Origin: Gonocerus acuteangulatus
Taxonomy: Eukaryota > Arthropoda > Insecta > Hemiptera > Coreidae
DNA length: 64,000 nucleotides
Assembly: GCA_946811695.1 (NCBI GenBank)
Contig: OX328132.1
Location: 100,930,935-100,994,934, forward strand
Reading direction: 5' to 3'
How positions within the stretch are numbered: the first letter of the stretch is position 1; every line of letters starts with the position of its first letter. This document shows, piece after piece, positions 4,026 through 52,004 of this stretch. Both the position numbers and the translations under genes were made by a program. The notes beneath the pieces were generated by a model that was not told the origin of the DNA, ran no database searches, and worked only from the letters and a program-made list of their open reading frames with translations.

Positions 4026-4287
4026 AAATCTGAAAATTTAGAAGATATTTATAAAAAAGAAGTTGAACGAACAATGCAACAATTACAAGACAAACTCCAG
4101 TTAAATATTATACAACAGTCTCAACTTGTACAAACACATGATAAAACAAATAATGTCGAAACACTTCAGCAAATGGTTGTCCATCAACAACAAATTGTTC
4201 AACAAATACAGATGTCTCAAAGACAATATGCACTACAACCTGGCACCTCTCAAATAGATAGTTCCAGCTGTGGAGCTAAGCAGACAG
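4026..4287 (+). CDS. FoxP: FoxP exon: Gln-rich N-terminal region
   Basis: An 87-codon exon starts at KSENLEDIYKKEVERTMQQL and carries repeated Gln-rich blocks (QQMVVHQQQIVQQIQM). FoxP proteins have a Gln-rich region with an 'FYKKQQEQ'-like segment before the zinc finger, and IYKKEVER corresponds to it. The borders are ttcag|AAA and CAG|gtaaag. It starts in phase 0 and ends with one base of a Gly codon completed in the next exon. The internal ATG at 4074 is not needed as a start. Confidence 0.85.
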
Positions 4288-4359: not shown

Positions 4360-4449
4360 GAACTCATAGTGAAAATGAAGAAACACCTCCAGGAAAAATG
4401 ACAAGGGAAGAGGATAAAACAAACGCTGAAAAAACTTCCAACGTACCAG
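4360..4449 (+). CDS. FoxP: FoxP exon: acidic linker before zinc finger
   Basis: A 90-base exon encodes a hydrophilic stretch with HSENEETPPGKMTREEDK between the Gln-rich part and the zinc finger. The borders are tttttgcag|GAACTC and CCAG|gtaata. It starts and ends in phase 1 and so could be skipped without changing the frame. The intron before it is only 72 bases. Confidence 0.75.
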
Positions 4450-4910: not shown

Positions 4911-5079
4911 GGACCATTGGTCCAGCAAGGAGAGACTGCTTAAATGGAAACTTGCCCTCTTTCAAGGATGATTTAAGTATAGAGAACAAAAATGATAAAG
5001 TTCAACTACTTTTTGGGCATGGCGTATGCAAGTGGCCTGGTTGTGATACTCTATGTGATGATATGAAAAGTTTTTTAAA
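4911..5079 (+). CDS. FoxP: FoxP exon: C2H2 zinc finger
   Basis: The exon encodes [14 protein letters not shown] followed by [20 protein letters not shown], the start of the FoxP C2H2 zinc finger. The Cys pair is CKWPGC; the two His are completed by the next exon (KHLNNEH), giving C-x4-C-x12-H-x5-H. In FoxP proteins this finger sits next to the leucine zipper and helps dimerisation. The borders are acacag|GGACC and TTAAA|gtaagt, ending inside a Lys codon in phase 2. Confidence 0.93.
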
Positions 5080-8470: not shown

Positions 8471-8660
8471 ACATTTGAATAATGAACACACATTAGATGA
8501 TCGCTCAACAGCTCAAGCTCGGGTTCAAATGCAAGTAGTCTCTCAACTAGAACTTCAATTGCAAAAAGAAAGGGATAGGCTACAAGCAATGATGATTCAC
8601 CTTCACATGTCAAAACAGCAACCAGCTCCTGAACAAGATGCTAATACGGAATTATCAAAT
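8471..8660 (+). CDS. FoxP: FoxP exon: zinc-finger His pair and leucine zipper
   Basis: The exon begins by completing the zinc finger (HLNNEH) and continues into the FoxP leucine zipper: [20 protein letters not shown] then [11 protein letters not shown], with hydrophobic residues at heptad spacing. FoxP proteins need this zipper to form dimers and bind DNA. The borders are atttcag|ACATTT and AAAT|gtaaga; it ends in phase 0 at TELSN. The open frame beyond the donor is intronic. Confidence 0.95.
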
Positions 8661-8765: not shown

Positions 8766-8922
8766 GTTTTAAGGAATGCAAGTGTCCCTAAAAGAAGTTC
8801 ATCTCCTGGGTATGTTGGACCTAATCCTGGAAACACACCTACAAGGTCACCATTAAGGCCTCCCACACCCAGCTCAGCCAAGCGAAGAATATCTGACAAA
8901 TCTTCCCTCTCAATAGCGGGAG
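8766..8922 (+). CDS. FoxP: FoxP exon: Ser/Pro-rich linker
   Basis: The exon encodes VLRNASVPKRSSPGYVGPNP, then TRSPLRPPTPSSAKRRISDK, a basic Ser/Pro linker between zipper and forkhead that includes a KRR cluster. The acceptor is aaaaaag|GTTTTA behind a T run and the donor is GGAG|gtattt. It ends in phase 1 and joins the 9714 exon to restore a Gly codon. The linker is compatible with phosphorylation (SP/TP sites), which is inference only. Confidence 0.85.
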
Positions 8923-9713: not shown

Positions 9714-9758
9714 GCCTACCCTACATGCTGGAGAGAGCAGGTCTTGATGTACAACAAG
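9714..9758 (+). CDS. FoxP: FoxP micro-exon before forkhead
   Basis: A 45-base exon encodes LPYMLERAGLDVQQ. FoxP proteins have a conserved 'LPYMLDRAGLDVQQE' block immediately N-terminal to the forkhead. The borders are gtttcag|GCCTAC and CAAG|gtaaaa; phase 1 at both ends. It is too short to appear as a long open frame but the match is clear. Confidence 0.93.
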
Positions 9759-11500: not shown

Positions 11501-13040
11501 TGTTGATTACTTACTTACAGGCGGACACCAAGTCCGTGAAGGACCAAGGCCTTGATGAGCCAACAGCTCATTCCAGGCAGCTCTATCTGTTGCAAAACAC
11601 CTCCAACGGCGTATTCCCATTTCCTTCAAATCGTTCTCCACATCATCTGGCCAGCACAATCGAGGTTTTCCTGCCTCCTTCCACCACTCGGCATCCCATA
11701 CCGGAGCTTTCTTGGCAATCTCTCAGGTGTCATTCTCTCAATATGTCCCAACCATTTAAACCTTAGACGTTTTATGAAAGAAATTTTTTCTGGGTCTTCA
11801 TACAACTGTTTAAGCTCCTGACTGTTTTTTATTTTCCAAAAGTCACCACACTTTACTGGGCCATATATCCTTTGGAGTACCTTCCACTCCCAGAATTGTA
11901 GAATTCTTGTACTTTCTTTTGTTCGTGCCCATGCCTCGCTTCCATATGTGACTACTGGGCATATAACTTATAAATAACTTATAAATGTGGATCTTTGCTT
12001 TTCTGGAGAGCCCCTTGAACCTCAACAGTTTCTTCGCTCCAAACAGACATCTATTTCCAGCAGTAAGGGTGGGTTTACACTTGCTAGTTATTGCAGGATA
12101 TTTATATCAGAGAGAAATTGCGACTATTGAAACCCCATGTAAAATGTATGTCGGCAATAAATTCTACCATGAGCAATTTATTGCCGACATACATTTTACA
12201 TGGGGTTTCAATAGTCGCAATTTCTCTCTGATAGAAATATCCTGCAATAACTAGCAAGTGTAAACCCACCCTAAGACGGGCTTTATGTCTGGCACTACAT
12301 TGCACTCAGTTGAAATTATGCTGCCCAAGTACTTCAAATGTCTGCAGCTTTTGAAAATGACCCCTCCAAATTCTACAGACTCTTCTTCGTCGTGCTGTGT
12401 TGCCCTTGGTGTGCTCATGTACACAGTCTTGCTTTCACTGATTTCAAGTCCAAATTCCTTGGGAGCTCTAAGAAATCCGCCTGCTAACACTGATACTGTT
12501 CTCCCTCAAATCACTAAATCGTCAGCATACACCAGGTGATGTGTCAATCTATTGAAAATGGTGCCTCCGGGGTTTGTCCTTATTTTACGTATGCCTAATT
12601 CAAGGGCCAGATTAAATAAAACTACTGACAGGGGATCCGAAGTATCTTGAATATTAAAAAGCTTATATATTATCATTGACTTTTATCCTGCAACTAGTGT
12701 ACTTTAGGGTAATCTTAATTAGACGTATTATTTTACATGGCATACCCAATGAGTCTAGACCTTGACACATTTCTTCACGATCAGCATTGTCATATGCTTG
12801 CTTAAAGTCTGTCAAAAGATGATACAGCATTACATTATGCTTGTAAGTCCTTTCCAACATCTCCCTAAAAGTGAAAATATGATCAGTAGTTGACCTCCCT
12901 GGTTTAAAACCACATTGGTACTCTCCAATCTCTTTCTCAGCCTACATAAGGAAATTCCTCTGTAATTTTCGTATTCAAGTATATTTCCTTTCTTGAAGAT
13001 TGGGTAGACAAAAGCTTCAGACATTCACTTGGCATGTTCC
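11500..13040 (-). pseudogene. LINE reverse transcriptase relic
   Basis: Minus-strand frames give, in order, FVYPIFKKGNILEYENYRGI (RT motif), LLTDFKQAYDNADREEM (RT palm), GLEISESKTVYM with HLKYLGSIIS, RFKGLSRKAKIHIYK, and near 11750 a segment corresponding to 'RLRFKWLGHIERM'. This is the usual order in the RT and C-terminal part of RTE/craniofacial-type LINE proteins. Multiple frameshifts and stops are present, the catalytic region is degraded, and a small MITE interrupts it at 12068-12274. Confidence 0.75.
12068..12274. mobile_element. Foldback MITE inserted in the LINE relic (TAA target duplication)
   Basis: An almost perfect palindrome of about 207 bases starts GGGTGGGTTTACACTTGCTA and ends in its inverse. 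It is flanked by TAA on each side and splits the LINE coding sequence. A 3-base TWA duplication is typical of PIF/Harbinger-type elements, so a Harbinger-derived MITE is the best guess. No coding capacity. Confidence 0.75.
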
Positions 13041-18639: not shown

Positions 18640-18716
18640 AGATTGAGAGGAATAGGGAATTTTATAAAACAGCAGATGTACGCCCTCCTTTTACATATGC
18701 TTCTTTAATTAGGCAG
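18640..18716 (+). CDS. FoxP: FoxP exon: start of forkhead domain
   Basis: The exon encodes [20 protein letters not shown] then ASLIRQ, the N-terminal part of the FoxP forkhead (helix 1, '[12 protein letters not shown]'). The borders are tttcag|AGATTG and AGGCAG|gtgagt. It ends in phase 0. The intron beyond begins with a long T run (18735-18790). Confidence 0.97.
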
Positions 18717-20619: not shown

Positions 20620-20721
20620 TCAATAATTGAATCGCCTGATAAACAATTAACCTTGAATGAGATCTACAATTGGTTCCAAAATACATTCTGCTACTTCAGG
20701 AGGAATGCTGCCACATGGAAG
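20620..20721 (+). CDS. FoxP: FoxP exon: forkhead helices 2 and linker
   Basis: This 34-codon exon encodes [20 protein letters not shown] then [14 protein letters not shown], the middle of the FoxP forkhead. The FoxP-specific [10 protein letters not shown] block, which in vertebrate members supports domain swapping, is present. The borders are atttcag|TCAATA and GGAAG|gtaatt; both phases are 0, so it can join either 25801 or 26409. Confidence 0.97.
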
Positions 20722-25800: not shown

Positions 25801-25925
25801 AATGCAGTCCGGCACAACCTATCCCTCCACAAATGTTTCATGCGGGTGGAAAACATTAAAGGTGCCGTATGGACTGTTGATGAGGTTGAATTCCACAAAA
25901 GGCGACCCCAACGCTGTACCAGCGG
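25801..25925 (+). CDS. FoxP: FoxP alternative exon 1: canonical forkhead recognition half
   Basis: The exon encodes [20 protein letters not shown], then [20 protein letters not shown]. This is the canonical FoxP recognition helix ([13 protein letters not shown]) and wing, including the Arg and His that contact DNA in FOXP structures. The borders are attatag|AATGCA and AGCGG|gtatgt. It starts in phase 0 and ends in phase 2, so it splices in frame to 33469. It pairs with the alternative exon at 26409, only 483 bases downstream. Confidence 0.96.
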
Positions 25926-26408
25926 GTATGTCTACAACGAAAAGGTTTAAGCAACTACACTATTAACTTCTTACAAACATACCGATTCAGGGTCTTTTAT
26001 ATATGAAATTATTTCTTTTTGTTCATGGTTTACACTATGTGTGGCTTAGCATGTTTTGGCATCTCAAATTTCAGTATATAATGTATATCTCATCATATAT
26101 GTGTATACGTAGGTGTATATACTTATATGCCTTTCATTTTACACCTTCATATGTCTATACACAACACCCACATCACTGATAGGAATGGGATGGTGGCTGA
26201 AGACAGGTAAACCTCAATCGGATATGTTTTGTGAGACAGAGAATAGTGATAGTTTAGTTTTTCTCTATTTCTTTTTCTTTTCTCTTTTTATCTTTATTCC
26301 TTTTTTACAAAAAAAAAAAAAAAATCTTTATACCCCCTCTTCTCTGTTATTGTTCGAGTCGGGAGTTTTTGTTCTACAAAAGTTGTGTTCTCTGTGTACT
26401 TTATACAG

Positions 26409-26573
26409 AACGCTATCCGCACGAATCTCTCTCTCCACAAGTGTTTCGTCAGATATGAAGATGATTTCGGTTCTTTCTGGATGGTCGACGATGCTGAGTT
26501 TGTCAAGAGGAGGCACTTGTCCCGGGGAAGGCCAAGGAAATACGACCCTGCAACTGCCCTCCCATCTCTGTAA
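26409..26573 (+). CDS. FoxP: FoxP alternative exon 2: divergent forkhead recognition half
   Basis: The exon encodes [20 protein letters not shown], then [20 protein letters not shown] and RPRKYDP. It aligns residue for residue with the exon at 25801 but carries Thr in place of the recognition-helix His and a different wing. The acceptor is tttatacag|AACGCT. A donor GTAAGG begins at 26570, which would end the exon at 26569 in phase 2 and join 33469 in frame. If not spliced, the frame stops at TAA 26571-26573, with an AATAAA at 26695. From memory, insect FoxP genes have an exon of this type, so it is probably a conserved isoform. Confidence 0.93.
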
Positions 26574-26694
26574 GGCCCCAACAGCCAATCTCTATCTCTC
26601 TCTTTCGCCTGCCGCTCTGCTTGCCTTATTCTCATTATTATGGCTGCTAAAAAGCTGTTTGGATGTGCCTTGCATATATAATTACTATCCTTTG

Positions 26695-26700
26695 AATAAA
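26695..26700 (+). promoter_or_regulatory. Candidate polyadenylation signal for a short FoxP isoform
   Basis: AATAAA occurs 122 bases after the stop codon of alternative exon 2, so a transcript that fails to use the 26570 donor could end here. An A-rich genomic stretch follows directly, which could also cause internal oligo-dT priming in cDNA data. Confidence 0.45.
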
Positions 26701-33468: not shown

Positions 33469-33541
33469 GGATTCAGTACCAGATGATAATACGTCAAAGT
33501 GTTCAAGGTTGTATAATGATGCAATCAACTCTTCGCTTCAG
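33469..33541 (+). CDS. FoxP: FoxP exon after forkhead
   Basis: The exon encodes DSVPDDNTSKCSRLYNDAIN then SSLQ. FoxP proteins have a 'YGDALNASLQ' block soon after the forkhead, and LYNDAINSSLQ matches it. The borders are attttcag|GGATTC and CTTCAG|gtgagt. It accepts phase 2, so both alternative exons (25801 and 26409) join it in frame, as GGG Gly or CTG Leu at the junction. Confidence 0.85.
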
Positions 33542-34789: not shown

Positions 34790-34902
34790 GTAACAAGAAC
34801 TGAGGGCTCACCTTACAAGAATCTACTAAGCCATCCCATCCCACCACCTCCTTCGTCACATCCGGATCCCGATGAAGCTCCACCTTCACCAAAAAAAAAA
34901 AG
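34790..34902 (+). CDS. FoxP: FoxP exon: Pro-rich segment with basic KKKR end
   Basis: The exon encodes VTRTEGSPYKNLLSHPIPPP, then a Ser/Asp/Pro stretch ending PPSPKKK plus an Arg codon split by the intron. PSPKKKR could act as a nuclear localisation signal (inference). The borders are attccag|GTAACA and AAAAG|gtaata; it ends in phase 2. The 11-A run at the exon end is a site prone to length variation. Confidence 0.8.
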
Positions 34903-37040: not shown

Positions 37041-37961
37041 CTAGACGTGATAGGATCGTCTCCGCCCCAGGTCTTCTACATCCTCCAAGGTGACGGCGTT
37101 GTGTTCTCTAATAGTAACGACTCTGTATGGTCCATCATACAGAAATGGCATCTTCTTCCGATTTGAAGGGATACGTCTATAGACAATCTCACCAATACGC
37201 AGCGGGTGGGCTATATCTCGCAATTGGTTGTTTGTGCGTGTCACTCTCTTCCTCTTTTCTTCTTCAAGTCTACGTTTCGCTTCTTCCCTCGTTCTTTTCT
37301 GAATTTTGTGTATGTCGCGAATGGCATTATTTAGTTCTTGGTCTTCGCTCGACTGTGGGACTGCTCGACGTAAGCACCCCATACCGAAAAGGACTTCAAG
37401 AGGCGTAAAGCCTGTGGCTGCGTGGACCGAGTGATTGTTGGCCAAGATAGCTCGTGCCATGCTGTCTCGATCATTGAGTGTTTTGCTGGCTGCTAAGATG
37501 CGAAGATGCTCCGTGAGAGTGCCGTGTAGGCGTTCAACTACTCCACGGCCTTGAGGGTGTCCTGGAGTAGTGAGGTGTAATTTCGTGTCCCATGATGATA
37601 ACAACTCTCGAAGGAGGCGATTGTCAAACACACGACCACAATCAGTGATGATGGTCTTTGGAGCGCCGTATTCTTGTGCCCACTAGAGTAGAGCCATTCG
37701 GATTTACTCTGCTGACTTCCTTTATGCTGGAACTGCCATGGCGACCTTGTTGAAGCAGCCCACAATGGTTACCCATTTTTGTCCGTTCCAAGTGAAGGTG
37801 TCCATCTGGATTGTTAGTAGGGGTTTGTCAGATGTTGGTGTGACCTCTTGTCTTGTATGCTCCGGTCGGCGTTGATATTTAACCTGTTGGCACACTCTGC
37901 AATGACTGATGACTTGATGGACGGTTTGGCGCATGGACTCCCAGCCGTAAGATCGCTTCAA
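37041..37961 (-). pseudogene. Gypsy-1 integrase, broken
   Basis: Two frames remain. 37961-37722 has the zinc-finger Cys pair (CRVCQQVKY) and the start of the catalytic core (IQMDTFTWNGQKWVTIVG). 37631-37041 has the core end (HPQGRGVVERLHGTLTEHL, with the catalytic Glu) and a C-terminal GPYRVV segment. The frame is broken between them, around 37680. Integrase joins element cDNA to the genome; this copy cannot. Confidence 0.85.
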
Positions 37962-38287
37962 CGCTGCGAGGGCCTCTGCTTCACCTCGGTGGTTTGTTTT
38001 ACCTTGGTGTTACGCTAAAGTGAATTCCTTTTGCCTAGACTTGTCATTTACGCGTTCCCCAAGTTGAGTGCATCGGACGAACCCTCTATCGAGGCCAATG
38101 CGTTAATTTCTCCACAGCATAGCGACGCGGTTCCACAACCGCGTGCCTGCCGTGGATGCATCGTTTATGAGGCGAATGATGGTTTTTTCGTTGACAGTAG
38201 CTTCTGTTCGTACCGTGCACTCTTTCATGCCTCGCTTCTGCCTTCCAAACAAGACCTGGGGTGTTCCAGACGAAACAGTTTTCCAAA

Positions 38288-39070
38288 TTACCAAATTATA
38301 TGTCTCTTGTGACTCACTACTAGATCGTCGATTTCTGGCATTTCCGGGGGTCGTTCCGTCGCAGACTCCGTTGAATCGCTTCGGCGATCCACTTCCTCTT
38401 CATCTCCTGGGGTCCACTCTTGAAAGAATCTACGCAGTGGTGGTTCAGGGTCTTCTTCGTCGGAGGATAACACGTTAACCGGAAGCTCCCGAGAGAGCCA
38501 GTCGGCTACCACGTTTTCCTGTCCCGGGGTGTGGACTACCTGAAAGGAGTATTGTGCCAACTGGTGCTTCCATCTGGCAACTCGAGCGGAAGTTTCTTTT
38601 AGGGATGCTACCCACTGCAATAGCTTGTGGTCGGATTTCACTAGAAATCAGCGGACAAAGACGTACGGTCTAAAATGATCCACGGCCCATACACTGGCGA
38701 GTAGTTCTCTTTCCAGGGCGCTGTACCTAGATTCTGTGGGTGTTAATCTCCTGCTGCTAAACGCGATTGGCTGGTCTCCGTTTGGTCCGGACTGTGACAA
38801 GACTGCTCCGAGAGCGTACTCGCTAGCGTCTGTGGTAATAATGAACGGTTGTTTGAAGTCCGGGAAAGCTAAAAGAGGTGCTGCTTGTAGATGTTGAATG
38901 CATTCCTGAATGTCCGCCTTCATCTTTTCCGTAATCTGAAACCTTTCTCCTTTGCGAAGAAGCTGATAGAGTTGTGCGACTCTGTGGGCCATTGCTGGTA
39001 TAAACCTCCTATAGTAATTAAGCACACCCAACGTTCTTCGTACTCCTTTCACATCTTTGGGAACGGTCAT
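38288..39070 (-). pseudogene. Gypsy-1 RNase H region, broken
   Basis: The frame 39070-38648 begins in the connection between RT and RNase H (RRTLGVLNYYRRFIP) and carries TTDASEYALGAVLSQ and ERELLASVWAVDHFRPY. After a stop, 38641-38288 continues with SDHKLLQWVASLKETSARVA and an acidic tail. The region normally degrades RNA in RNA/DNA hybrids. Stops show it is inactive. Confidence 0.85.
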
Positions 39071-39244
39071 TTGTTGAAGGGCTTCAATTTTTGTAGGATC
39101 GCGTCGTACCCCTGCTTCCGATATTAGGTGTCCTAAAAACTTTATTGACGCTTCTCCGAGCTTCGTCTTATTTGGGGATAATTTAAGTCCGAAGTCTCTT
39201 AACCTGTTGAAGGCTTGCCGTAGATGATCATTGTGCTCGCTTGA

Positions 39245-39907
39245 TTATCTACTGAAAACCAGGAGGTTGTCCATGTAGACTTGTACGAAGTTTTCACTAA
39301 GCCCACGCAGAAACTCGTCCATAAGCCTTTGGAAGGATGTTGGCTCATTTTTCAAACCAGACGGCATCCTGGTGAAGTGATAATGCCCGCGCTCGAACGA
39401 AAAGGCTGTTTTCTCTGCGTCTTTAGGGTGTAGTTTGATTTGGTGATATCCTGCTTTTAGATCGAGTGTGCTGAACACTTTGGCTCCGCGCAATCTATCG
39501 AGTATGTCTTCTAATCTTGGTAGAGGGTACTTCTCATCCACCGTTAGAGCATTGAGTTTCCTGTAATCGACTACAACTCGATATTTTCCAGTTTCTCCGG
39601 CCTTCGGCTCTGCCCAAAGTGGACTATTGTATGCTGATTTACTGGCGACGATGATTCCCTGTTCTAGTAGAATCTCGACTTCTGTCCGGATGACGTTTTT
39701 CAACACGTGCGGGTAACGACGTTCTTTCACGTTTACCACTCTGTCTTCTTTTAAGGGTATTTCGTGCAGTGTCCGTCCTGTAACTCCTAGTGGTCGACCA
39801 TCATGCCAAAAGATGTCCTTATAAGCTCTCCGCAATTCTTCAAACTTGTTGGTCACTTTAGATACTGCCCCTAGTTGACGGTTGGTTTGAGAGCTTTCAC
39901 TATCCAC
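39245..39907 (-). pseudogene. Gypsy-1 reverse transcriptase, catalytic motif mutated
   Basis: A 220-codon frame has the Gypsy RT motifs YRVVVDYRKLNALT, FSTLDLKAGYHQIKL and FTRMPSGLKNEPTSF, and ends soon after VQVYMDNLLVFSR. The canonical YxDD box reads YMDN, so one catalytic Asp is lost, and a stop follows. It lies in a different frame from the protease region upstream. The neighbours are protease (39871-40242) and RNase H (38648-39070). Confidence 0.9.
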
Positions 39908-40242
39908 AATGTATGCCCGCGAGCCAGCACATTCCAGATTTTGCCGTTATGTTTCACTCTTCCCCCAACTCTCGCGACGAGGTCACATCCAACTATGCCT
40001 TCGAACCCTGTTGGCTGGCTTCTCACCACGTGGACCTTAATATCTTCTCCTGGGCGGCCCCATGGAAACAAGTTCCACCGTGTTTCTCCTTCCACTGCGT
40101 AGCGGCCGCCTAGTGTTGACAGCATACAACGACATTCCCGTAGTTCCCCATCGTTCAGCTGGAAGGATTGCTGGCTGATTATCGTGCAGGATCTCCCCGT
40201 GTCGACTAGCCAGCGGCGTCCTCCTTCCTCGATGATCGGCAA
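39871..40242 (-). pseudogene. Gypsy-1 protease region
   Basis: The frame encodes RRWLVDTGRSCTIIS with the aspartic protease DTG motif (Ser/Ala position changed to Arg-Ser), and FEGIVGCDLVARVGGRV, which corresponds to the 'ILGxDxL' flap-side motif of retropepsins. It is separated from RT by a frameshift. Confidence 0.75.
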
Positions 40243-40314
40243 CCGTCCTCTCCTCTTTTTGTTGCGCCCGATGTTGTTGATTTGCTCCTGGTTGCCGCTC
40301 CGCTCACACTTTTC

Positions 40315-41445
40315 TCATTGGGTTTTGGGCTCCGCTCGTTGGTCTGGTTTCCCACGCCCCGGCCATCTTTTCCAACTATTTTCTGACAATGCACTGCTTT
40401 CGCTGCCCGAGTCCGAGGAATAATTTTCTCCTCTTATCGCATTAGCAAAAGTACGTTTTTCTCGTTGTGCATTGATTTCCATTGGTTCGCCTTTGTCACT
40501 GTTTCGCCGTTTGATGTATGGACAGTTCCGGGGGACATGCCCACCGATTCCGCACTCAGAACACTTTGTTTTCTCGCACTGGGCTGCGAGGTGCTTGGTG
40601 CTCCCGCACTCGTAACAGCGTTTTTCTTGATCGCGCCGAGGCTTCCTGTCGTTTCTTTTCTCAAATTGTTCTCGCCTACCGTCTCTTCTGTCATTTTCTC
40701 TCCATTCCCGCGGTAGTCCTCCGGATCTTCTAGGCCGACGTGGTTCGGCGAGCATCCACAATTCACCTCCTCCGTTTACTTCCTCCTCGGCGTGTTTTTC
40801 GTCCTCGTCCATTAATTCTTGCGCGCATTCTCCGAACGTTTTATCGGTTGCGACATTCCTGGTTGTCTCCCTCTTCAGTTGTACCTTTAGGATCGACCCA
40901 ATGAAATCGAGTTGTTTTTCGGCTTCGACGGCGGTTAACTTTTCACTTAGTTTGTCCGCGATTTTTGCATACCATTCCAGTAACTTCATTGCGTAGTTTC
41001 TTATGGATTGGATTGGTCGTTTTGTCTCCCTAAACATGCGGATCAGATCATCTTCAACTGCCCATCTTCCTCCTCCATAAGCTTTTTTCAATCTTTCCTT
41101 CACCGTCTGCCATGGTGTATCTTCATCACTTTGAATAAGGTTAAGGACACGCCTACTGATGCGGTTTACTAAAGCCGCTTGGAGCGCAGGTACTTCTGCT
41201 GCATCTAACCACCCTACTTTCTCCTTATCAGAGATGGCTTTATTAACTCTGCCCCCAGCTTTTAAGAAATGAGTTAGATCATCAACCTCTCCTGTGAACC
41301 TTTCTACTTCCGAGATTGCCGTCCTCATATCATGGGCGTTAGAGGTTTGTATCTTGATCCACGTGAGGGCTGTGGTAAGATCCATTTGAACTACACCTTG
41401 TTCGTGTGCCATTCTTATATTATTACGTCTATCTTGTAGAGACAC
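40315..41445 (-). CDS. Gypsy-1 Gag
   Basis: A 376-codon open frame begins MSLQDRRNNIRMAHEQGVVQ. The middle has a retrotransposon capsid-like helical region with TGEVDDLTHFL. Near residues 275-310 are two CCHC zinc knuckles, CYECGSTKHLAAQC and CSECGIGGHVPRNC, which bind element RNA. The knuckle region is flanked by Arg-rich sequence, and the C-terminus is Ser-rich and basic. Gag is the most intact part of this element. It starts about 110 bases inside the 5' LTR and primer-binding site. Confidence 0.9.
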   Translation of the reverse strand: MSLQDRRNNIRMAHEQGVVQMDLTTALTWIKIQTSNAHDMRTAISEVERFTGEVDDLTHFLKAGGRVNKAISDKEKVGWLDAAEVPALQAALVNRISRRVLNLIQSDEDTPWQTVKERLKKAYGGGRWAVEDDLIRMFRETKRPIQSIRNYAMKLLEWYAKIADKLSEKLTAVEAEKQLDFIGSILKVQLKRETTRNVATDKTFGECAQELMDEDEKHAEEEVNGGGELWMLAEPRRPRRSGGLPREWRENDRRDGRREQFEKRNDRKPRRDQEKRCYECGSTKHLAAQCEKTKCSECGIGGHVPRNCPYIKRRNSDKGEPMEINAQREKRTFANAIRGENYSSDSGSESSALSENSWKRWPGRGKPDQRAEPKTQ

Positions 41446-41534
41446 GTGATGAACGCTGGTTTTTTTTCATCCACTACTTTTCCGTCGCACTGTACGCGCA
41501 CCGTACCGGTAGCGAACTCGGAACTCCGGGATTA

Positions 41535-41994: not shown

Positions 41995-42205
41995 GTTAAA
42001 TCAGGAAAGAAGTTCACCATGTGATATGGGACTGAAAGTGGAACAAGGGCGTCTGATGTATAGCAATGAACAAGAATCGGAAAGCAGTGAATCCCTTCAA
42101 ACTGACTATGCCATAAAGCAAGAAAGCCAAGGAATTATTGACAATCCTGTTCAAGACTTATCTATCAATGAACAGTTAACACAAAGTGATTTAACTGAAT
42201 CCTAA
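41995..42205 (+). CDS. FoxP: FoxP last exon and stop
   Basis: After completing an Arg codon it encodes LNQERSSPCDMGLKVEQGRL, an acidic Ser/Glu-rich part, YAIKQESQGIIDNPVQDLSI, and ends SDLTES with TAA at 42203-42205. LKVE and IKQE fit the SUMO-site pattern, and vertebrate FOXP proteins also have acidic tails with such a site. The acceptor is attttag|GTTAAA. The intron before it is 7.1 kb, three-quarters of it Gypsy-1. Confidence 0.85.
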
Positions 42206-46408: not shown

Positions 46409-46731
46409 ACTGGTGTCAGGTGTGGGGTTGACTGCGAATAATTTTAAAGAAGCGAGTGAAGGAGCTTGCAGAGTAGCGAGTAGCTAGGAGGCGGGGGGGG
46501 AGCTGAGAAAGCGACTCTTATCTTCTCGCGAGGCTGTAGCGGGCAGCGGGGGGCTAGCTTATCGTGTTCGCTGTAATCGGACACGCTGTTTACATCGGGC
46601 ACTCTGTTGATGATTACGGTGTAAGATATGGGATAATATCTTAGCGTATTATTATACGGCCCGTGATTTAGTTTTTTTTTTAAGGGTTTTTGTAATATAG
46701 GCGTGCGGGTACTTATTTTAAAGCACATAAG

Positions 46732-47766
46732 ATGGCGAATCCAGAAGAACTAATTACGAACCTGAAGGGCCAACTAGAGGAGGCTTTAAAGGCTAATCAG
46801 TTATTTAAGGAAGAACTAACAAAGTCCCGGGAGTCAGCACGAATGTCGGGGTCTATGGCGCCGAGGCGGGATATGTCCTTACAGGCGATGGTAGCACCTT
46901 GGTCAGGCGATGATTCTTCGGTCCCTGTCACTGACTACTTGAACGGACTGGAATTAGTAGCAGATAGTGGGCAATGGGAAGATAAAGATATGGCGCTCGT
47001 GGTCCGGATGCGCCTCAAGGGCTCAGCCGCGTCTTTTCTGGCGAGTCGTACCGATTTACAAGGGCCCGGGGTGCCCTACGACACTATTAAGGTGGCTCTC
47101 TTGGAAAGGTTCAGGGAGGTTAGGCGTCACGAACAGTTTTTACTACAATTGAGCAACATGAGGCAGGAAAAAGGGGAGGGGGTCAGAGCGTTTGCCGACC
47201 GCTGCCGTAAGCTAGGGGAAAAATCCTGTGGGGCATCAGGTTCCGAGGAGGAACGCAAGGGTGCAAGGAACCTTTTGGACAAAGTTGTCCTGTCAGCTTA
47301 TTTGTCGGGGCTGAAGGGAGAGATAGGACAGCAAACCCGTCTTAGCTTCCCTTCTAATTTGCAAGGGGCTGTCGAAAGGGCCACTGCTATCGAGGAGGAG
47401 CTGGGCCGAGGAGAGTCGCAGCATTTTACGTGTAGAGAAGTGGTAGCTGTGGAATTTTGTGAGGAAGATGAACCTCTAGGACTTGAAGAAAAGGGAGTAG
47501 CCGTTGCAGCGAGCGAGCGAAAGGAAGCGTGTTTTAGGTGCGGAGTCAGGGGTCACTTCGCCCGTGACTGTCGAAGGGCATGGCAACCAGTTAGAGGTAC
47601 AGGCCGTCAGAATATGCGGTGCTACCAGTGTAATGGGGTTGGTCATATAGCCAGAGAGTGCAAGGGCAACCAAGATCGGGGGGCAAGGGGGGAAAGTCCT
47701 AAAATTCAGGGGCGTTACCCAAATGCGAACGGCCGAGGGATGCCCCCTGCCCGAGGCCCACAATAG
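46732..47766 (+). CDS. Gypsy-2 Gag
   Basis: A 344-codon frame begins MANPEELITNLKGQLEEALK, a short coiled-coil-like start. It has a capsid-like middle (DYLNGLELVADSGQW, RMRLKGSAASFLASR, LLERFREVRRHEQFL) typical of Gypsy Gag. Two CCHC knuckles lie near residues 266 and 297 (CFRCGVRGHFARDC and CYQCNGVGHIAREC). Gag packages element RNA into particles. It ends TAG at 47764. The pol frame is open from 47703, so a -1 frameshift in a 64-base overlap could express pol; no obvious slippery heptamer was found. Confidence 0.95.
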   Translation: MANPEELITNLKGQLEEALKANQLFKEELTKSRESARMSGSMAPRRDMSLQAMVAPWSGDDSSVPVTDYLNGLELVADSGQWEDKDMALVVRMRLKGSAASFLASRTDLQGPGVPYDTIKVALLERFREVRRHEQFLLQLSNMRQEKGEGVRAFADRCRKLGEKSCGASGSEEERKGARNLLDKVVLSAYLSGLKGEIGQQTRLSFPSNLQGAVERATAIEEELGRGESQHFTCREVVAVEFCEEDEPLGLEEKGVAVAASERKEACFRCGVRGHFARDCRRAWQPVRGTGRQNMRCYQCNGVGHIARECKGNQDRGARGESPKIQGRYPNANGRGMPPARGPQ

Positions 47767-50700
47767 ATCGGGGGGACAAGCGTATAAATGACCTACGAAA
47801 AACTTGCGGGGTGCCCCGCCTTATTATCCCAGTAAAGGTAAATGGGCAAGACTTGGAGATGATGGTAGATACGGGAGCGGACATCACAGTTCTTAATCGG
47901 CCTGCGCCGGGGGCGGGGCTTCAGCCAGTTTCTTTTAAGGTCCGCGGTGTAACAGACCATTTATTGCCGCTGGAAGGGGAACAAGTCGTGGACATTGAAC
48001 TCCCAGGGTTTTCTTTCCGACACAGGGTCGCCGTAGCCCGGGTGCTCCCCTCGGGAGGGGGAATCCTCGGTCGAGACTTGCTAGGCCGCGTCGGAGCTAG
48101 AATAAGTATAGGTGGGAGGAATTACGACTTGGGGACCCTTACCACTTCTCTTGGGGTGACTTCGACAGAGACGGTAACCGAGGCTCAAAGTGAAGAAAGA
48201 GACAGGAAGTGGATCGAGGGGGTCGTGGCTAGGACCCGTATCTTGGAAGAGAAGTGGTCTTGCCCCGGTTCAGGAGTTAGTTCGTCAAACATTGTCAGTG
48301 CTGCCGGATCCGCAGGGGGTTGTACCGTTAGCCAGAAGAGTAGCTCCGGAGACGCTCATACAATAAGTAATGGCTCCGGGCGCAAAGCACGCCGGAGGGA
48401 ACGGAAATCTCCTTATGTCAGATTGTGCCAGGAGGTATCCCTTCCGGCTTATTCTGAGGCGACAGTGGCTGTTCGAGTGCCTGCGGCCATAAGGCGGGGT
48501 AATATTTTAATTGAGCCACTAGAAGGGCTTACATCTGGAGTGCGCACAGGGCGTAGCGTGAGTGAGGTCGTGGAGGGATCCGCGTGGATACAGGTGGTTA
48601 ATCTCAGTGGAGGGTCAGTCGTACTACGTCGTGACTCCCCTCTTGGTAGGGTTGAGGAAGGTAATTGGTCACTGGCAGAAGGTCAAGGTGAGTCCCCCAC
48701 CAAAGCGAAACAAACCGTAAAGACAGGGTCGGACCTACAGGAGAAGCTCCGACACCTCCCCGTGGTAGAAAAGAAGCCCTTGTTGGAGCTTCTTTCTCGC
48801 TTCCAGGATCTCTTCGAAGAGCCCAGAGGGGAAGGTTGCGCGCTACCCGTCCAACATCGGATAGTTACGGGTAATGCCCGGCCTGTGGTGAAGAGACCGT
48901 ATAGGGTCCCGTACGCGGAGAAAGCCGTGGTGGCGGAGCAGCTGAATTCTATGCTGGAAAGGGGTATAATTACGCCCTCCACTAGTCCTTGGCAGGCTCC
49001 AGTTTTACTAGTAAAAAAGAAATCGCCGGATGGGGAGGTGCGATATCGGTTTTGCACTGATTTCCGGGGGCTTAATGCCGTTACTCGGGTGGACACATAC
49101 CCTCTGCCCCTGATTCAGGAAACACTAGAACAGCTCGGCAATTGCCGGTACTTTAGCACACTGGACTTAGCCAGTGGATACCATCAAATCCCCATAGCCC
49201 CGGAAGACCAGGAGAAGACAGCGTTCACCACCGAGGGAGGCCATTTCGAGTACAGGAAAATGGCTTTCGGATTGGCAGGGGCTCCGGCTACCTTCCAAAG
49301 GTTGATGGAACAGCTATTAGGTCGTCTAAAGGGTACCGGCTGTTTTGTATATCTCGATGACGTAGTGGTGTACAGCGCCACACTCGGTGAGCATATCGCC
49401 CGGCTGGAGGAAGTATTTAACTTACTTCGCGGGGCGAATTTAAAGGTCAACCTACGAAAGTGTACATTCGCGGCCAAGGAGGTCATGTACTTAGGGCATG
49501 TGGTGACTGACAGTGGAGTCAAACCCGACCCTGGAAAGGTGGAAGCAGTAAAAACCTTTCCGAAACCACGGAATGCACGCGAGGTACGTAGCTTCCTCGG
49601 TTTAGCGAGCTACTATCGCCGTTTTATCCCGGAGTTCGCAAGTAGGGCGAAAGCCCTTACTGAGCTAACAAAGACTCGAGCTACTTTTGTCTGGGAGCCT
49701 GCGCAGGAGAAATCATTCGCGGACCTGAAGGAGGCCTTGACCTCCGACCTCCTACTAGTGTATCCGGACTTCCGAGACCCCTTCGTGCTCTCTACGGACG
49801 CTTCCGGAGTAGCTCTTGGGGCTGTGTTGTCTCAAGTGCAGGGAGGCGTCGAGAGGCCCATTTGCTATGCCAGCAGGCAATTGAAGGGGCCGGAATGTAA
49901 CTACTCTGCCACTGAACGAGAGTTGTTGGCGGTCGTTTGGGCGACAAAGCTCTTTCGATGTTACTTGCTTGGGCGAAAATTTAAGTTAATTACCGACCAT
50001 GCTGCTCTTAAATGGATGCTAAGTCTGAGGGACCCCTCTTCTCGGCTGACTCGATGGGCCTTGCGCCTTGAGGAATTCGAATATGTCGTTGAACACAAGC
50101 CCGGAGTGAATCATAAAAATGCAGACGCGCTAAGCCGCTCCGTTGCTGAGATACGGACCCGGTACCCCCTCACCCGGAGCCACATCCGGAGGGCCCAAGA
50201 GCAAGATGGCTGGTGCCAGAAGCTGGCAAGGGAGGGCGGTAGTGTCAGGGCCGATGCAGAAGGATTGTGGTACTGGGCTGTTGATCTCGAAGGGAGTGAT
50301 TGGCGTCTCCTAGTTCCGGAGTCGCTTAGGCTAAAGATCCTCGAATACCACCATTCGAAGCCATGGGCGGGACACCCGGGTATAGAACGCACGCTTGCCA
50401 ACTTAAGGGGGTCCTTTTATTGGCCCTCTATGGAGAAGGATGCACGGAACTTCGTTGAGAGCTGCCATAGGTGTGCTCAGCGAAAGAGCCCACCAGGCCT
50501 GAAGGTGCCTCTGGAAGTGCCGTATGTGGCCAGTGGCCCATTCGAGCAGGTGTCATTAGATATTTTTGGCCCTCTACCAAGGTCAAGGAGAGGGCATAGA
50601 TATCTACTGACTTTTATCGACAATTTTACGAGGTACGCCGAAGCAATCCCTATAAAGGAGCAGACCGCTCAAGAGACGGCCGTAGCCTTTGTGGAGAATA

Positions 50701-52004
50701 TTGTGACGAGACATGGTGTGCCAAAGAGGCTGCTCACTGACCAAGGGAGAAACTTTGTTTCTTCTCTCTTCAAGGAAGTATGCAGAGCTCTTGGGATAAA
50801 AAAGCTGCAGACTACAGCCTATCATCCGGAGTGCAATGGCATGGTAGAACGCCTCCATCGCACGATCACGGATTCGATCACACATTTTGTGCGGCGGGAT
50901 GGTAGAGATTGGGACCGTTGGGTCCCGTATGCAGTTATGGCGTACCGAGCCATCCCCCACTCCTCGACTGGGTACTCCCCCAATTACCTACTTTTAGGAC
51001 GGGAGTTAGTCACCCCTTTCGACTGCGATCTAGGGCCTAGCTTGAACCAGGAGGACCGAGATAGGCTCTTACCGGAAGATCATGTGATACAGCTACGGAA
51101 GCGGCTTTCGGAAGCATATCGAGAGGCGCTGGTACGATCCGAGCGATGTTATCAACGTCGAACAGCCTTCGTAAACTCTCGGAGGAAAGAGCGCGAGCTA
51201 GCAGCGGGTGACTGGGTGTACTTAAATGTGCCAGCGGTCAAACCGGGTCACTGTCCGAAGTTCCACCGTCCATGGACGGGGCCGCATCAAGTCACCCGTG
51301 TACTCTCCCGGGTTAATTATGAGGTCGAGCTGTCTACCGGGGCGCGAGCAGTTGTGCACATCAACCGCCTTAAGAAGGCCGCGACTAAGGGGAATATGGA
51401 TCCGGAGAGAGAGGAGGCTGAAACGACTAATAGGTCGTACCGCGAAGAGCAGGACGAGGAAGAGGCAAACGACGAGTGGTCTTGGGCGATGGAGCCAGGG
51501 CGTCCATATGACTTGAATTACCAGACGCCAGACCGGGCTGGTGACGCGGAAGAAGGGGAAAGCGAGGCAAGGGCGACCGATCATTCTGACTGTCCCGTGA
51601 GTGCGGGGGCATCCCCTTCGTGTCCAGATCCTAGTTGTCCTCTCGGCGGCCAGTTTTCGTCGCCACCTTCGGAAACGACTACCCCCGATGAGGTCCTATC
51701 CGACTCAGCCCCTGAGGGAGAAGTAGGTCAAGAGGAGGAAGCCGAACGGAGCGGTTCACCCCAGCCTATAGGACGGGAGGAGGGCGCAAATGAGGGGGGG
51801 AGGCACCGCGAAAGATCCAGACGTTTATACGGCCGACGGGGCGTAGACTCCCAACCTTCGAGTGAGCGTCGTTCCTCCTCTAGTTCTCCGAGCAACGACC
51901 CCAAGGATGCGACCTGGACGCCAGGAGTGCGGGAACAGGGACCCCGGCCACGATCACCATATTCCCTCCGGAGGAGAGGCGTTCAGAGACCTAACGATGA
52001 GTAG
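47703..52004 (+). CDS. Gypsy-2 Pol (protease, RT, RNase H, integrase)
   Basis: A continuous frame of about 1,400 codons, read from the conserved region at 47811. Domains by residue from 47811: aspartic protease, VDTGADITVLN (about 18-28); reverse transcriptase, FSTLDLASGYHQIPI and FVYLDDVVVYS (catalytic Asp pair about 515); RNase H, LSTDASGVALGAVLSQ (about 660) and TERELLAVVWA (about 700); integrase zinc finger, HHSKPWAGH ... CHRCAQRK (about 846-890); integrase core, DIFGPLPRS, LLTDQGRNF and HPECNGMVERLHR (about 916, 977, 1012). An acidic and Ser-rich tail ends PYSLRRRG. It has no internal stop and appears coding-competent. Confidence 0.96.
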   Translation, partial: NSGALPKCERPRDAPCPRPTIDRGDKRINDLRKTCGVPRLIIPVKVNGQDLEMMVDTGADITVLNRPAPGAGLQPVSFKVRGVTDHLLPLEGEQVVDIELPGFSFRHRVAVARVLPSGGGILGRDLLGRVGARISIGGRNYDLGTLTTSLGVTSTETVTEAQSEERDRKWIEGVVARTRILEEKWSCPGSGVSSSNIVSAAGSAGGCTVSQKSSSGDAHTISNGSGRKARRRERKSPYVRLCQEVSLPAYSEATVAVRVPAAIRRGNILIEPLEGLTSGVRTGRSVSEVVEGSAWIQVVNLSGGSVVLRRDSPLGRVEEGNWSLAEGQGESPTKAKQTVKTGSDLQEKLRHLPVVEKKPLLELLSRFQDLFEEPRGEGCALPVQHRIVTGNARPVVKRPYRVPYAEKAVVAEQLNSMLERGIITPSTSPWQAPVLLVKKKSPDGEVRYRFCTDFRGLNAVTRVDTYPLPLIQETLEQLGNCRYFSTLDLASGYHQIPIAPEDQEKTAFTTEGGHFEYRKMAFGLAGAPATFQRLMEQLLGRLKGTGCFVYLDDVVVYSATLGEHIARLEEVFNLLRGANLKVNLRKCTFAAKEVMYLGHVVTDSGVKPDPGKVEAVKTFPKPRNAREVRSFLGLASYYRRFIPEFASRAKALTELTKTRATFVWEPAQEKSFADLKEALTSDLLLVYPDFRDPFVLSTDASGVALGAVLSQVQGGVERPICYASRQLKGPECNYSATERELLAVVWATKLFRCYLLGRKFKLITDHAALKWMLSLRDPSSRLTRWALRLEEFEYVVEHKPGVNHKNADALSRSVAEIRTRYPLTRSHIRRAQEQDGWCQKLAREGGSVRADAEGLWYWAVDLEGSDWRLLVPESLRLKILEYHHSKPWAGHPGIERTLANLRGSFYWPSMEKDARNFVESCHRCAQRKSPPGLKVPLEVPYVASGPFEQVSLDIFGPLPRSRRGHRYLLTFIDNFTRYAEAIPIKEQTAQETAVAFVENIVTRHGVPKRLLTDQGRNFVSSLFKEVCRALGIKKLQTTAYHPECNGMVERLHRTITDSITHFVRRDGRDWDRWVPYAVMAYRAIPHSSTGYSPNYLLLGRELVTPFDCDLGPSLNQEDRDRLLPEDHVIQLRKRLSEAYREALVRSERCYQRRTAFVNSRRKERELAAGDWVYLNVPAVKPGHCPKFHRPWTGPHQVTRVLSRVNYEVELSTGARAVVHINRLKKAATKGNMDPEREEAETTNRSYREEQDEEEANDEWSWAMEPGRPYDLNYQTPDRAGDAEEGESEARATDHSDCPVSAGASPSCPDPSCPLGGQFSSPPSETTTPDEVLSDSAPEGEVGQEEEAERSGSPQPIGREEGANEGGRHRERSRRLYGRRGVDSQPSSERRSSSSSPSNDPKDATWTPGVREQGPRPRSPYSLRRRGVQRPNDE

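Follow-up and report, generated by a model that had tools for sequence, protein, structure and literature searches.

A conserved pair of alternative forkhead exons in the FoxP gene of Gonocerus acuteangulatus

The stretch of Gonocerus acuteangulatus DNA that was analysed (64,000 nt, positions 100,930,935-100,994,934 of contig OX328132.1; hereafter, the window) contains an insect FoxP gene in which two alternative forkhead exons, termed A and B, form an ancient, conserved pair that very probably constitutes the standard isoform switch of such genes; the nearest FoxP relative found is that of a stink bug, Halyomorpha halys. Because alternative forkhead exons have been published for the FoxP/FOXP1 genes of fly, human, and mouse, the locus represents a known switch in a further species and is not new in kind. 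An earlier, sequence-only reading of this DNA had presented the occurrence of both intact exons in one locus as its finding, a novelty that has to be given up, since this arrangement had already been published for Drosophila FoxP and for human and mouse FOXP1. The locus adds one insect to those in which this well-described switch is present. Less attention has been paid to the strongly conserved short tail on one exon version, which resembles a second DNA-binding motif.

The FoxP gene is intact in the window and lies on the plus strand, where it is modelled from position 4026 on with 12 coding exons found per isoform (Table 1). All placed exons have AG/GT borders and a continuous frame; from the methionine codon at 4074, the isoforms would comprise 521 amino acids with exon A and 533 amino acids with exon B, each with a single terminal stop. 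The Q-rich part, the zinc finger/zipper, and the first half of the forkhead are encoded by the exons between 4026 and 20721. In the window's isoform B, the FOXP-CC domain (PF16159) scores 118.3 bits at a cut-off of 28.9. The Forkhead domain (PF00250; cut-off, 27) reaches 98.8 bits for the A forkhead, 89.8 bits for the B forkhead, and 85.7 bits in the full-length isoform B. The predicted product, therefore, combines a Forkhead domain with an upstream zinc finger/leucine zipper (FOXP-CC), which is the combination that assigns a gene to the FoxP subfamily.

Table 1. Coding exons and other features of the FoxP locus, in positions of the window
Feature	Position	Strand	Basis or remark
Eight shared FoxP coding exons	4026-4287, 4360-4449, 4911-5079, 8471-8660, 8766-8922, 9714-9758, 18640-18716, 20620-20721	+	Frame, GT-AG borders, tblastn with H. 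halys FoxP
Exon A, wing 1 and recognition helix of the canonical type	25801-25925 (125 nt, phase 0 to 2)	+	Matches H. halys X2 at 100% identity
Exon B, alternative recognition helix, wing 1, and RGRPRK tail	26409-26569 (161 nt, phase 0 to 2)	+	Matches H. halys X1 at 100% identity (56-residue query segment)
AT-hook-like RGRPRK within exon B	26523-26540	+	Hand-counted
Splice donor of exon B, GTAAGG	26570-26575	+	Contains in-frame TAA, 26571-26573
Cluster of seven YGCY tetramers, candidate Muscleblind sites	26606-26669	+	Just 3' of exon B
Exon C, in-frame partner of A or B	33469-33541	+	
Exon D	34790-34902	+	
Last coding exon with shared stop	41995-42205	+	

Retroelement-like sequences were noted by eye in and near the gene. 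Reverse-transcriptase-like frames occur on the minus strand at 11626-13024, in the intron that separates exon 9714-9758 from exon 18640-18716, and Gag/pol-like pieces with zinc-knuckle, reverse-transcriptase-like, and integrase-like frames are found on the minus strand at 37041-41466, antisense within the intron that follows exon D. On the plus strand 3' of the gene, a Gypsy-like gag (46696-47766) is accompanied by a pol-like open frame of 1433 amino acids (47703-52004).

The exon preceding the pair (20620-20721) ends with T-W-K in phase 0 at the border ..ACATGGAAG/GTAATT, where the slash marks the splice site. Exon A has the borders ..AATTATAG/AATGCAGTC..(125 nt)..AGCGG/GTATGT, and exon B has the borders ..TTTATACAG/AACGCTATC..(161 nt)..CATCTCT/GTAAGG; the intron between them (25926-26408) measures 483 nt. 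Both exons follow TWK, both lengths equal 2 mod 3, and either exon can be joined in frame to exon C (acceptor, ..TTTTCAG/GGATTC..), from where the two isoforms share their frame in exon D and in the last coding exon, with a common stop ending at 42205. The coordinates, phases, and spacing given in the sequence-only reading, as well as its in-frame joining of each exon to exon C, are accordingly right. A and B, which it had aligned over recognition helix and wing, share 63% identity over 35 amino acids, and a search of the 1.106 Gb genome with the exon B sequence yielded two matches, namely, B itself and exon A.

Comparison with the FoxP gene of another insect, which had been proposed as a check, revealed the same exon pair in H. 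halys, with annotated isoforms of equal length (X2 with exon A, 521 amino acids; X1 with exon B, 533 amino acids). A and B are each 100% identical in protein sequence to their H. halys counterparts, and because of this identity the conservation of the pair is, at the protein level, judged to be far beyond chance; isoform A as a whole is 80% identical. Protein searches gave 203 matches at E ≤ 0.01 among 205 candidates for the B segment and 3415 matches among 4940 candidates for isoform A. Among the matches listed, the sole 100% match over the whole B segment was isoform X1 of H. halys (P0012), where B continues into exon C, and the best match of isoform A was H. halys X2 (80% identity over 96%). 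The best 120 of the 203 and the best 120 of the 3415 matches were combined into a set of 221 proteins, which includes several entries per species, so that counts are non-independent; among these listed matches, 125 proteins are B-type, 118 are A-type, and 22 are both. The B-type sequence is near-invariant across the 125 B-type proteins among the matches listed. That exon B might be a decayed or unused duplicate is, hence, extremely improbable, given this near-invariance, the protein identity to the H. halys B exon, and the ordinary splice borders.

An unrooted tree was calculated from 35 residues of 25 sequences, two from the window and 23 chosen from the set of 221. It splits A-type from B-type sequences with 99% ultrafast bootstrap, with arthropods and vertebrates on each side; the window's B groups with the B exons of other phyla, apart from the neighbouring A, and the B-type sequences of Tribolium (P0161) and Schistocerca (P0156) are placed in the B clade. 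Because arthropods and vertebrates fall in both the A and the B group, the tree indicates that the exon pair predates the arthropod-vertebrate split. Santos et al. 2011 reportedly traced the duplication that gave rise to the tandem exons back to the base of Bilateria.

In Drosophila FoxP, according to passages of the respective papers, exon 7 gives rise to isoform A and exon 8 to isoform B (PMC7776582, PMC4070984, PMC6372147), and a published exon-8 primer encodes KNAIRTN, as does the window's exon B (PMC4070984). Both fly exons are alternative last exons, exon 8 being described as the last exon (PMC4070984, PMC7776582), whereas the window's A and B can continue into the shared exons C and D and the last coding exon. 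For honeybee FoxP, two isoforms affecting the forkhead are mentioned in a passage of PMC6219247. In human stem cells, exon 18b of FOXP1 replaces exon 18, by which the DNA preference is changed from GTAAACAA to CGATACAA, as stated in a section of a review (PMC11701043) on Gabut 2011. This human exon pair 18/18b (FOXP1-ES; 16/16b in the mouse) resembles the pair in the window in that the recognition helix and wing are swapped, an RGRPRK tail is present, and the reading continues in frame; however, vertebrate B-type exons begin with Gly and the window's B with Asn. Among the matches listed, Asn is the first residue in 105 of the 125 B-type exons and Gly in the other 20, all of which are vertebrate by name.

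As to the combined use of the exons, the product including both A and B would meet a stop codon at nucleotides 2-4 of exon D, 111 nt upstream of the last junction found, and the product without A and B would end after GFSTR, 170 nt upstream of that junction. The usual criterion for nonsense-mediated decay is the 50-nt rule. Because both distances exceed 50 nt, nonsense-mediated decay is probably to be predicted for either product, if the exon starting at 41995 is the last one. Judged by frame alone, the two exons exclude each other as far as the two standard proteins are concerned, because inclusion of both exons or of neither would lead to an early stop; at the level of the individual transcript of G. 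acuteangulatus, one or the other exon would be expected to be chosen. Among the matches listed, 22 of the 221 protein models carry both the A and the B sequence in one frame, separated by 0 to about 100 residues foreign to either exon. We take these to be automatic models reading into the intron, yet they are counted against strict exclusivity.

The mutual exclusivity claimed in the sequence-only reading stands for the two standard proteins; for transcripts it may be less than strict, a combination of A and B being annotated in H. halys. Its assumption that joint inclusion would add a second recognition helix was mistaken, as a preceding exon A puts exon B into a different frame (TLSARISL..), which yields no helix. 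It is rather unlikely, but conceivable, that A and B are not mutually exclusive and that B is added after A to give either a third protein, whose A forkhead is intact and whose tail is frameshifted, or an mRNA destined for degradation, in the manner of a dosage switch. This would be in line with H. halys X3 (P0122), also returned by the isoform A search, in which A is followed by B in the shifted frame and by a long open tail, and with the shifted frame of the window being open through B and C. The early stop in exon D, with decay to be expected, argues against it, and so does the finding that the shifted frame of B is identical between the window and H. halys in 38 of 54 residues only, while B itself is identical. 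Moreover, 15% of synonymous recodings would be expected to give an open shifted frame in B, and a search with the X3 tail matched X3 itself alone (one of 38 candidates). The H. halys A+B tail was rejected as a conserved second reading frame on the basis of the 38/54 identity and the early stop in the window. Because the A+B tail stops early there, double inclusion would at most be lineage-specific or yield a decayed product, and the choice of either A or B remains the preferred reading.

The donor of exon B deserves separate consideration. The TAA at 26571-26573 would act as a stop only where B is not spliced to C; the end coordinate of 26573 in the earlier reading takes in this triplet, which overlaps the donor, while exon B itself ends at 26569. 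It is improbable that B is an alternative last exon ending at this TAA, comparable to Drosophila isoform B in its own last exon. The in-frame position of the TAA within the donor, an AATAAA at 26695, a Nesidiocoris model (P0024) ending at the corresponding place, and the terminal position of the fly's exon 8 would fit such an arrangement, but the donor is good and the frame is kept into C, H. halys X1 and a Lygus protein (P0033) continue from B into C, and AATAAA/ATTAAA is common in the surrounding AT-rich stretch, with 15 occurrences in 2.0 kb. Splicing of B to exon C is, thus, favoured.

Exon B would alter the forkhead in two ways. In the recognition helix, His in A (NAVRHN) is replaced by Thr in B (NAIRTN); in FOXP2, this His contacts bases. 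In addition, the RGRPRK tail directly follows the KRR that closes the forkhead, the vertebrate counterpart being RHIQRGRPRKY. Among the matches listed, RGRPR is present in 122 of 125 B-type sequences (120 as RGRPRK), from arthropods and vertebrates alike, versus, within 50 residues, none of 118 A-type sequences, and column conservation amounts to 98-99% in RGRPR and to 41% two residues past its end. Of the three B-type proteins without RGRP, the models P0016 and P0021 end partway through the motif; P0205 skips it. RGRPR is invariant across 19 aligned B-type proteins, which range from Hemiptera to shark and gorilla. An AlphaFold model of H. halys X1 based on an alignment of 19 has a mean pLDDT of 51.6, with values below 50 over residues 357-434, which make up most of exon B; these values are too low for the fold of B to be judged from the model.

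The tail may be designated AT-hook-like, with a putative function in DNA binding. With the HMGA type of AT-hook, whose consensus in a review, TPKRPRGRPKK, has RGR at its centre (PMC11354804), it shares the RGRP core followed by basic residues. It differs in the absence of a Pro ahead of the core and in its Pfam AT_hook score of 11.5 bits, which is below the cut-off of 17.4; no AT_hook match was obtained in scans of full-length proteins, including the window's isoform B. FOXP is mentioned once in that review (PMC11354804), in a reference title, and an open-literature search of limited depth found no papers on an AT-hook in FoxP/FOXP1, although such a description may be in print already.

In the scenario proposed, splicing would normally pick A or B. 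Exon A would yield the canonical factor (NAVRHN), while exon B would yield the Thr-for-His isoform (NAIRTN), whose forkhead carries the RGRPRK tail at its C-terminal edge; mRNAs containing both exons or neither would probably be removed by nonsense-mediated decay. The B isoform should then read a different or looser DNA site, as FOXP1-ES does, perhaps assisted by the tail through minor-groove contact. The tail is a specific and testable clue to the different DNA binding expected of the B isoform, which bears on insect learning genes as well as on FOXP1-ES in stem cells.

Concerning the control of exon choice, YGCY is the MBNL motif. The seven YGCY tetramers beside exon B start between 26606 and 26666, six of them inside the 80-nt stretch 26576-26655. 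Initially, 8 of 4852 GC-matched windows (0.16%) reached six YGCY, but these were the cluster itself, and after their exclusion none of 4832 such windows elsewhere, on both strands, did so. Per 80 nt, the best count is seven beside B, whereas none of the gene's 25 other exon flanks exceeds two. By shuffling, six YGCY are reached with P = 0.0018 (0.18%) for mononucleotides and P = 0.22 (22%) for dinucleotides; the latter value is unsupportive, dinucleotide shuffling often reaching six because YGCY is nearly made of its own dinucleotides. According to passages in the respective papers, MBNL1 represses human FOXP1 exon 18b (PMC8189919, PMC13044900, the latter also containing the term YGCY) and acts on it by direct binding to intronic regions (PMC4978528 citing Han 2013). 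By analogy, the choice of exon B may be under Muscleblind control; a literature search of limited depth found no titles on a FoxP exon under muscleblind in Drosophila.

It may tentatively be envisaged, albeit with considerable doubt, that B is a double switch predating the divergence of arthropods and vertebrates, in which the His is exchanged and a functional AT-hook (RGRPRK) is appended, so that a site-specific reader of the major groove would become a minor-groove-anchored binder of AT-rich chromatin, and that the choice of B would be set by Muscleblind via YGCY in insects, as it is by MBNL in mammalian stem cells. The YGCY cluster, in any case, raises the question of whether Muscleblind control of exon B is as old as the exon itself.

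In the acceptor region of exon B (26384-26408), two TGTGT elements were observed at 26384 and 26393, which are possible sites for CELF-type factors. Such factors are described as MBNL antagonists in a passage of a planarian paper (PMC4978528).
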